NCBI GenBank assembly: GCA_016215325.1
Contig: JACRJV010000017.1
Location: 1-54,428, forward strand
DNA: 54,428 bases
Direction of reading: 5' to 3'
DNA from: Candidatus Uhrbacteria bacterium
GTDB taxonomy: Bacteria; Patescibacteriota; Patescibacteriia; JACRJV01
Shown here piece by piece: positions 13,884 to 47,248 of the stretch. Positions within the stretch are counted from its first letter, which is position 1, and the number at the start of each line of letters is the position of its first letter. A model generated the notes under the pieces. It did no database searches. It saw nothing but the letters and a program-made list of their open reading frames with translations, and was not told the origin of the DNA. A program made the translations under genes and the position numbers.

Positions 13884-14483
13884 ATGATTCACCTTTATAC
13901 TGGCAATGGAAAAGGGAAGACAACGGCAGCGCTGGGGTTGGCAATGCGAGCAATCGGAGATGGCAAAAAAGTGTTCATGATCCAGTTTATCAAAGGCCCC
14001 TGGCCTTCTGGCGAAGACAAAAGCCATAAGGTGTTTGGTGAGCGCTTTGTATTGGTAAAGGGCGGCAAAGGGTTTGTGGGGATTTTGAACGATACGCTGC
14101 CGCGCAGTGAGCATGAGCAGGCGGCACGCAAAACGCTCGAGCGAGCGGAGATAGAGATAGAGACCGGGGAGTGGGATATCGTGATTCTCGATGAAGTCAA
14201 TGTTGCGTGCGATTTGAATTTAATAGCTTCACAGGATGTGATTGATGTGGTGGGGCGGTTTTCGCAACGTCATCCTGAGTCCGCCAAGGCGGGGGAAGGA
14301 TCTCGTCGAGATTCTTCGGCCGGGCCTCAGAATGACGGAAAACAGAAACCAGAACTCATCATTTTGACCGGTCGCAATGCGCCCAAAGAATTTTACGAAA
14401 TTGCCGACCTTGTTACCGAGATGCAAGAGGTGAAGCATTACTATAACGAGGGGCAAATAGCCAAACGCGGCGTGGAATTTTGA
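13884..14483 (+). CDS. cobO: Cob(I)yrinic acid a,c-diamide adenosyltransferase (CobO/BtuR-like) with in-frame palindromic repeat
   Basis: IHLYTGNGKGKTTAALGLAMRA, VILDEVNVACDL, LTGRNAPKEFYEIADLVTEM. Confidence 0.9.
   Translation: MIHLYTGNGKGKTTAALGLAMRAIGDGKKVFMIQFIKGPWPSGEDKSHKVFGERFVLVKGGKGFVGILNDTLPRSEHEQAARKTLERAEIEIETGEWDIVILDEVNVACDLNLIASQDVIDVVGRFSQRHPESAKAGEGSRRDSSAGPQNDGKQKPELIILTGRNAPKEFYEIADLVTEMQEVKHYYNEGQIAKRGVEF
14269..14336. repeat. 68-bp GTCATCCTGAG...CTCAGAATGAC palindromic repeat inside cobO
   Basis: Outer arms GTCATCCTGAG/CTCAGAATGAC, inner CCGCCaaGGCGG and ATCTCGtCGAGAT. Confidence 0.85.
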
Positions 14484-44959: not shown

Positions 44960-46151
44960 ACTTATTATTGAAGACTTTGACCCGGTAGAATTTTACTTAG
45001 GACTTCATCGTGAACAGTCAGTGAGCTTCCTCCACACCGGGTTAATGACAGACCGTGATCACTGGTCCGTCCTCGCATGGGCGCCCCAACGAACGATTGT
45101 CCGTTGGGAGGATTTGCCACGCGACTGTTCGCGACATCCTTGCAAGTTGCCATTTTGCGGTGGAGTGATTGGGGTGCTCCCCTATGATAGTGGTGGGGGA
45201 TTACTGCCGCCGGTCATCGCTTACGAGTACGATCAATTCCTTTGTTACGATCTGAAGACGGGGAAGGTGTATACCAGCGCTCCAGAATTTGTCATGGAGA
45301 TGTGGCAGCGGCCAAAACTTCGTCATTCTGAACAGACGAGTATACGCCTCCAGCCATTGTGGACACATCTGGATTATGCCAAGAGATTTAATCGCATTAA
45401 GGAATTTATTTTGGATGGGGATATCTATCAAGTGAATTTGAGCTATCCCTGGACAGCGCGCTTTACGAGTGATGCACGCGGGTTGTTTGCGCGATTGTGT
45501 AAACAACATCCCTCATCGATGAGCGCATATATTCAAGGAGATGATTTTGAGCTGGTGAGTTGCTCCCCGGAGCGATTCCTTGCTCTTGATGGCAATGTAG
45601 TCCAAACCATGCCTATTAAAGGCACGCGGCCCAGGGGGGCGACTCCGGTAGAAGACCAACGGATGCATGACGAGTTGCTTTCGAGCGCCAAGGAAACAGC
45701 AGAACTTGCGATGATTACTGATTTGTTGCGCAATGATATAGGACAGGTATGCCAGATCGGTTCCGTGGAAGTGAAACAATTTAAAGCGATCCAACAGTGG
45801 CCAACGGTCTGGCACACCCATTCGCTCATTGAAGGGGTGCTTGCCGATCGCTATCACGCAATAGATTTGTTGCGTGCGTGTTTCCCGGGGGGTTCAGTGA
45901 CGGGTTGCCCAAAACGCCGGGCTATGGAGATTATTCAGGAAGTGGAGCAATCCCCTCGCGGGCTGTATACGGGAAGTGTTATCAATTTGAGCCAGTGTGG
46001 AAAAATGGACAGTAACATTGTCATCCGGTCGCTTGTTGCCAGCAAAAACGCCCTGACGTTGAACGTCGGGGGGGGGATTGTCGTGGACTCGGATTGTAAC
46101 GCTGAATACCAAGAGACGCTTGATAAGGCCAAGGCCTTTCTGTCGTTATGA
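44946..46151 (+). CDS. pabB: Aminodeoxychorismate synthase component I / anthranilate synthase I-like
   Basis: DIYQVNLSYPWTARF, SCSPERFLALDGNVVQTMPIKGTRPRG, GGSVTGCPKRRAMEII. Confidence 0.92.
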   Translation: MNIIELIIEDFDPVEFYLGLHREQSVSFLHTGLMTDRDHWSVLAWAPQRTIVRWEDLPRDCSRHPCKLPFCGGVIGVLPYDSGGGLLPPVIAYEYDQFLCYDLKTGKVYTSAPEFVMEMWQRPKLRHSEQTSIRLQPLWTHLDYAKRFNRIKEFILDGDIYQVNLSYPWTARFTSDARGLFARLCKQHPSSMSAYIQGDDFELVSCSPERFLALDGNVVQTMPIKGTRPRGATPVEDQRMHDELLSSAKETAELAMITDLLRNDIGQVCQIGSVEVKQFKAIQQWPTVWHTHSLIEGVLADRYHAIDLLRACFPGGSVTGCPKRRAMEIIQEVEQSPRGLYTGSVINLSQCGKMDSNIVIRSLVASKNALTLNVGGGIVVDSDCNAEYQETLDKAKAFLSL

Positions 46152-46840
46152 GTAAAGGGGTGTTTGAGACCATGCGGACGTATGGAGGAAATGTGTACAT
46201 GCTCGATGCGCATCTTCAGCGCTTGGAGCGTTCAGCGATTCTTATCGGGATGAAATTGCCGGAGAGCATGACGACAATGAGACAGCGCGTCGTTGAGGGT
46301 GTGCGATCCCGTCATGGAGATTATTCACTAAAAATTCGAGTCATTGCGACAGCCGAGAATGTCGCGGTTGAAATAACTTTATTGGAGATTACTCCAAATA
46401 TTAGCCAGGGGGTGTCCGCCACGTTTGTGAATCTCGAGCGCGAGCCCCCCCAAGAAGCCAAGCAATGGCCCTACACGCAATGCCAGCAGGCGCATCAGCG
46501 GGCTGTGGACCGGGGTTTTTTTGATGCATTACTTGTTGATCGTTCTGGGATCGTTCGCGAAGGCGCGTATTCTAATATTTTTTGGGTGAACCATGGTAGA
46601 ATATATACGACCGGGGAACATATCCTTCAAGGGATAACCCGGCAAGTCGTTTGTGAGCAGGTTCCCGTGGTATTGGGGCAGATCACTGCCAAGAAACTCC
46701 TGCAGTGCGACGAAGTGTTTATCACCAAGACAACCACCGGCGTAACTGGCCTTGTTGCGATTGACGGGAAAACAATTGGTAAGGGCAAGGTTGGTCCTGT
46801 GACGGCGAAATTGATGGAGTATCTCCACGCTCTCGAGTAG
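46148..46840 (+). CDS. pabC: Aminodeoxychorismate lyase-like (fold-IV PLP aminotransferase family)
   Basis: GVFETMRTYGGNVYMLDAHLQRLERSA, REGAYSNIFWVNHGRIYT, DEVFITKTTTGVTGLVAIDG; overlaps pabB stop. Confidence 0.88.
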   Translation: MSKGVFETMRTYGGNVYMLDAHLQRLERSAILIGMKLPESMTTMRQRVVEGVRSRHGDYSLKIRVIATAENVAVEITLLEITPNISQGVSATFVNLEREPPQEAKQWPYTQCQQAHQRAVDRGFFDALLVDRSGIVREGAYSNIFWVNHGRIYTTGEHILQGITRQVVCEQVPVVLGQITAKKLLQCDEVFITKTTTGVTGLVAIDGKTIGKGKVGPVTAKLMEYLHALE

Positions 46841-46855
46841 AGTCTTACCGTCATT

Positions 46856-46937
46856 GTCATTCTGACCCCGCTTTGGCGGGGGGAGAATCTTAACAAGAGC
46901 GGTTGCGACGAGCTCCTTCGTTCGGGCTCAGGATGGC
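46856..46937. repeat. GTCATTCTGA...CTCAGGATGGC palindromic repeat
   Basis: Same family as the cobO insert; inner CCCCGCtttGGCGGGG. Confidence 0.75.
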
Positions 46938-46945
46938 GGAACTAT

Positions 46946-47248
46946 ATGCAGCAACTCAAAGACATCCTTAAGCGGCATATGCCCAAGACGAGCATTGGCC
47001 GCCAGTTAGAAGCCAATCAAGTGCTCCATGCGGCAGAGCAGGTGATTGGATCGTGGTTTAACAACCGCGGGATGCCAGCGCAGGTGAGGGGGGAATATTT
47101 TAAACAAGGAGCGGTGTTCGTAAGCATCGGGCCTGCGCCCGCTGTGGATGAAATCAGATTGCATCAGAAGGAATTCCTTGCCAAAATGAATGAGCAACTT
47201 GGCCGCCCTGTTGTGAAACGGATTCAGGCGCTTGGCCGCGCATCGTGA
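46946..47248 (+). CDS. DUF721/DciA-like small protein
   Basis: 100 aa; AEQVIGSWFNNRGMPAQVRGEYFKQGAVFVSIGPAPAVDEIRLHQKEFLAKMNEQL. Confidence 0.55.
   Translation: MQQLKDILKRHMPKTSIGRQLEANQVLHAAEQVIGSWFNNRGMPAQVRGEYFKQGAVFVSIGPAPAVDEIRLHQKEFLAKMNEQLGRPVVKRIQALGRAS

Follow-up and report, generated by a model that had tools for sequence, protein, structure and literature searches.

Palindromic selfish DNA that is read in frame within genes has been discussed mainly as an oddity of Rickettsia and Wolbachia. The CGTC-tagged REPs described by Di Nocera, De Gregorio and Rocco 2013 (PMC3733652) consist of an unpaired CGTC or TGTC tag, a stem of 8-9 bp that starts with AT, a loop of 4-5 nt and a short unpaired tail, which is mostly CCA. 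They form head-to-head dimers that are often heterodimers, no transposase is associated with them, and their intragenic copies encode 20-30 residues (PMC3733652). These REPs were listed in five phyla, among which no Patescibacteria-type group appears, and their superfamily includes RPE-4 and RPE-6 of Rickettsia conorii (PMC3733652). Furthermore, RPE-4, RPE-6 and RPE-7 were reported to have common ATGAC ends and to be located in frame in genes which include those of PheT, an O-antigen ligase and UvrC (PMC3767692, on Rickettsia japonica). No paper on repetitive extragenic palindromes in Patescibacteria emerged from one search of the openly licensed literature, and an exact 16-mer of the element described below was absent from the literature searched; earlier reports elsewhere are possible.

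The window, which is the whole stretch of 54,428 nucleotides analysed here from a Candidatus Uhrbacteria bacterium, contains an ORF at 13884-14483 (+ strand) encoding 199 amino acids. This is a gene for a cobO/btuR-type ATP:corrinoid adenosyltransferase (CobA/CobO/BtuR, PF02572, E = 8e-52), where PF02572 is matched in two stretches and the TIGR00708 and PRK05986 matches are split by an insert. The earlier note had reported a 68-bp palindromic repeat in frame in this gene, and the repeat was found to occupy exactly 14269-14336, where it is translated as RHPESAKAGEGSRRDSSAGPQNDG. With one tag base on each side the repeat becomes a 70-nt head-to-head dimer of a CGTC-tagged palindromic element (14268-14337), delimited by cmsearch with the covariance model R1 and by its inverted arms. 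The dimer is palindromic at two levels, as the outer arms (14268-14282 and 14323-14337) are inverted and the inner arms are too. The left monomer (14268-14304, + strand, R1 E = 1.3e-5) is of the C-type (ATCCT/AGGAT) and its DNA fold holds the small palindrome CCGCCAAGGCGG in the loop. The right monomer (14308-14337, - strand, R1 E = 6.8e-8) is of the T-type (ATTCT/AGAAT) with an unpaired CGTC, a stem and a CTC tail, and folds as DNA into ....(((((..(((...)))..)))))....

Together with two further bases the dimer encodes a 24-residue insert. In CobO homologues of the same class and of many phyla the flanks to either side can be aligned and the segment is absent; removal of the 24 codons leaves a loop of ordinary length, and none of the other CobO homologues compared has an insert at this site. 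These distant homologues suggest that an insertion event took place in cobO. Comparison with repeat-less orthologues, from which the earlier note expected the exact insertion and any target duplication, did delimit the 24 extra codons. The AlphaFold model of CobO has a mean pLDDT of 87, with about 55 in the insert and 97 in the flanking strand, and Foldseek matched it to Salmonella CobA 1g64 (TM 0.86 by target) and to 4hut. Since the model matches the 1g64 fold with high pLDDT outside the insert, the protein seems to tolerate the insert as a loop. In the predicted structure it is a low-confidence loop at the surface of a confident BtuR/CobA fold, and both the homologue alignment and the model place it at the boundary between a helix and a strand, as had been read from the sequence beforehand. 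The P-loop and C-terminal motifs are intact and the ORF is open throughout, which argues against a dead gene. A misassembly could be suspected because the assembly consists of 27 contigs and repeats can collapse; however, the cobO copy occurs only once as a sequence, and three further genes of this genome as well as several other assemblies contain equivalent in-frame copies, so that an artefact of either kind is extremely improbable.

The element was also observed in CobO of a second genome (G017), where it occupies a different loop. In addition, short repeats of other kinds, for example a palindrome translated as PSPGLRPPSPLGRGEGEG, lie in frame in another loop of other CobO genes of the same class (L051 of G028, L052 of G048, L053 and L062). 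Judged from these sequences, CobO looks unusually tolerant of inserts.

The monomer consensus was derived from an alignment of 18 arms, all from this genome. A monomer is about 29 nt long (28-30) and is made up of an unpaired YGTC tag, ATYCT, GA, two to three inner pairs, a small loop, GA, AGRAT and CTC. In 153 arms the Y of the tag was T in 67% and C in 25%, while GTC was conserved in 97-100%, and the tag is unpaired in the folds. The stem opens with complementary A and T, where columns 5-6 pair with 33-34 in nearly all rows, and it comprises five Watson-Crick pairs, a GA/GA step and two to three further pairs. It thus spans about nine positions with an interruption; the loop varies in length and the tail has three nucleotides, CTC. 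The Y/R position of the stem covaries in the seed set. Among 96 distinct monomers of other genomes of the phylum, which were collected independently by a pattern with both covarying positions left free, 48 were C-G, 45 were T-A and 3 were mismatched (93/96 paired), and the first inner pair was likewise kept in 93 of the 96. Several monomers enclose small CCCGCC..GGCGGG-type palindromes in their loops (14280-14293 and 46867-46880 of the window; C18:28535 and C24:37239 elsewhere in this genome), which makes a repeat within a repeat; such palindromes occur 21 times in the genome, and the control gave 6.

By description, this element matches the CGTC-REP superfamily, including RPE-4 and RPE-6, in its main features. 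It shares with these REPs the unpaired CGTC/TGTC tag, the stem starting with AT, the predominance of head-to-head dimers, many of them heterodimers, the lack of a linked transposase gene and the presence of copies within genes that encode 20-30 residues. It differs in that its stem is ATYCT/AGRAT with a GA/GA step, in contrast to their uninterrupted 8-9 bp, in that its short unpaired tail of 3 nt is CTC and not CCA, and in its Patescibacteria-type host. Like RPE-4, RPE-6 and RPE-7, the element has an ATGAC end, is found in frame in many unrelated genes (PMC3767692; PMC3733652), at a solvent-exposed site (here according to the predicted CobO model only), and strikes some of the same gene families (PheT, O-antigen ligase). 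The Rickettsia elements differ in stem sequence and lineage; they reside in Rickettsiaceae, where their sites are common to orthologues. The parallel with in-frame Rickettsia elements drawn in the earlier note is therefore sound, as RPE-4/6/7 are also in frame in genes, and so is its separation of the lineages, the closest CobO matches coming from Ca. Ryanbacteria (52%) and Ca. Harrisonbacteria (47%). These matches, together with the genome size and completeness given below, suggest a Paceibacteria-like host within Patescibacteria. Its assignment to a different sequence family holds poorly, since the main features are those of a superfamily that includes RPE-4/6 (PMC3733652) and the ATGAC end is a motif common to RPE-4/6/7 (PMC3767692). 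The GTAG REPs with RAYT/TnpA-REP are likewise short palindromes in dimers, and no target duplication was seen here; the differences are the tag, which is YGTC in this element, and the Y1 genes examined here, which are not flanked by it.

The host genome (1.14 Mb, estimated completeness 93%) contains 24 occurrences of GTCATYCTGA against one for the reversed-pattern control, in agreement with the family proposed earlier. The covariance model detected 12 dimers in it, all head to head, and one of them is the second copy that had been noticed at 46856-46937 in the window. This copy is an intergenic dimer at 46855-46938 (R1 E = 3.9e-5 and 1.4e-6) between the ORFs at 46148-46840 and 46946-47248; it stops a few bases 5' of the ATG of the latter and may overlap its ribosome-binding region. 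A match to GTCATTCTGA at 45322 in a PabB-like ORF was rejected as a copy: it has no partner arm and was missed by R1, and we therefore took it as chance. A known Rfam RNA was also rejected, as the window yields only tRNAs. The dimer unit, the same-frame copies in three more genes of this genome and the copies in relatives had escaped the earlier note. In relatives, whose genomes are mostly draft assemblies, the element was present in 23 of the 57 same-class genomes sampled and in 60 of 287 sampled from the phylum (reversed control, 0), and close pairs were 65 head to head against 4 others (2 tail to tail and 2 tandem). Among 22 genomes searched, exact monomer matches were found only in a Harrisonbacteria genome and, outside Patescibacteria, in a Latescibacterota MAG (G355, the genome of L081), which has four exact monomers. 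The consensus dimer had no match in plasmid or phage collections, and spread by either route was rejected on this ground.

Host genes of intragenic dimers were identified through Pfam, NCBIfam and PDB homology. Four of the 12 dimers of this genome are intragenic and lie in CobO, PheT (PDB homologue E = 2e-57), Dus (E = 4e-46) and a GT4 glycosyltransferase (E = 5e-21), with lengths of 70, 58, 58 and 58 nt respectively, all 1 mod 3. The genome-wide count of frames suggested in the earlier note gave a single frame for all four, [RC]H[PS]x...Q[ND]D (RHPE...QND). Eight further dimers with this frame and a 1-mod-3 length were observed in Patescibacteria-type genomes, in GT4, ComF, RadA and PrmC of G016, in GT4 of G018, in CobO of G017, and in LepA and DHFR of Ca. 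Harrisonbacteria CG10_big_fil_rev_8_21_14_0_10_49_15, the genome of L062. The two exceptions, in a methyltransferase (G035) and in PriA (G007), are 2 mod 3 and are translated VIL...QND. A length of 1 mod 3 was found in 12 of 14 genic dimers against 22 of 66 that were not assigned to genes, some of which may lie in unrecognised genes (Fisher p = 0.0006, in tests designed once the first four cases were known). Leaving out three genic cases that were found by another route gives 9 of 11 (p = 0.005).

The hydrophobic VIL...LRMT frame is unused in all 12 genic 1-mod-3 dimers and in both exceptions. In the non-genic 1-mod-3 dimers this frame is open in 29 of 44 strand readings versus 20 of 44 for the polar frame. 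In five dimers checked, the used frame had a GRAVY of -1.5 to -2.2 and the unused one of -0.07 to +1.1. The hydrophobic frame was seen once in an identified gene, where a single arm in L211 (G028), a membrane protein of the O-antigen ligase family, is translated as RSLAVLGMT; membrane proteins perhaps tolerate this frame. Three GT4 glycosyltransferases (C22:135194 of this genome, L192 of G016 and L201 of G018) carry the element in the linker before the C-terminal domain.

Such recurrent placement, seen in the GT4 enzymes and in CobO of two genomes, together with the constant reading frame could point to adoption of the insert, whose polar loop would be kept for a new property, such as binding or stability, that the host protein gains from it. 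However, the proteins concerned are unrelated (CobO, PheT, Dus, RadA, LepA and DHFR), the peptide varies in length and internal sequence, the loop has low confidence in the AlphaFold model and the two CobO inserts lie in different loops, and we regard adoption as improbable. A role of the repeat as an mRNA hairpin in cobO, through pausing, stability or translation attenuation and with an incidental fit to the frame, was also considered. Of 200 shuffles, 197 fold less well than the repeat strand, both as RNA (-31.4 kcal/mol, z -2.6) and as DNA, and transcription is common for extragenic REPs (PMC3733652). The strong bias in frame and length would be unexpected from an RNA role, though, and the position deep within the ORF and the unrelated host genes also make it highly improbable. 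The frame and length bias is better accounted for by a dispersed, non-autonomous palindromic mobile element that is kept in genes as a hydrophilic surface loop, which we consider very probable.

Mobility is suggested by the copy number, the dispersal and the presence of the element across the class and the phylum. No target-site duplication of 2-9 bp was detected with four boundary choices in 77 dimers. Without such a duplication, a frame-preserving insertion needs two bases beyond a dimer of 1 mod 3. A weak preference for T (46%) was observed directly outside the tag, which is consistent with an element that is one base longer at each end. A Y1/RAYT transposase was rejected as a linked mobiliser: R1 gave no significant match around 25 Y1-containing loci, and the Y1 genes examined are not flanked by the element. 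The only Y1 transposase gene detected in this genome (L092, C22:107824-108168) has inverted repeats of its own, AAATGGGGTCAGCCACC and GGTGACTGACCCTATTTT, which are unrelated to the element, and in G013, which has 19 monomers, no Y1 gene was detected.

We propose that cobO received a non-autonomous CGTC-REP-type element, a head-to-head dimer of 28-30-nt stem-loops, with no detectable duplication of the target and probably through an enzyme acting in trans on single-stranded hairpins. The element would be open in two useful frames and genic insertions would survive when their length preserves the frame, nearly always with the dimer in the RHPE...QND frame, which would supply a polar peptide as a disordered surface loop. 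CobO is most likely still functional and the insert peptide most likely has no function.

A CGTC-REP-like element is thus present in a Patescibacteria-type genome, where genes have repeatedly retained it in a single polar frame. This explains the recurrent odd peptides RHPERSEGS...QND in proteins predicted from such genomes; left unrecognised, these peptides mislead annotation and the placement of domain boundaries. A further and tentative reading, which we find unlikely at present, is that the family is tuned for genic life, with one frame always giving a polar, disordered peptide, and that in-frame insertion is a regular loop-adding route across Patescibacteria. If this were true, selfish DNA would regularly add loops to essential proteins (RadA, PheT, LepA and DHFR) and this would not be a peculiarity of Rickettsia. 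The phenomenon of in-frame palindromic elements is extended here to a new branch, the small-genome Patescibacteria, with a measurable rule of frame and length that makes testable both the survival of selfish repeats in gene-dense genomes and the addition of segments to proteins.
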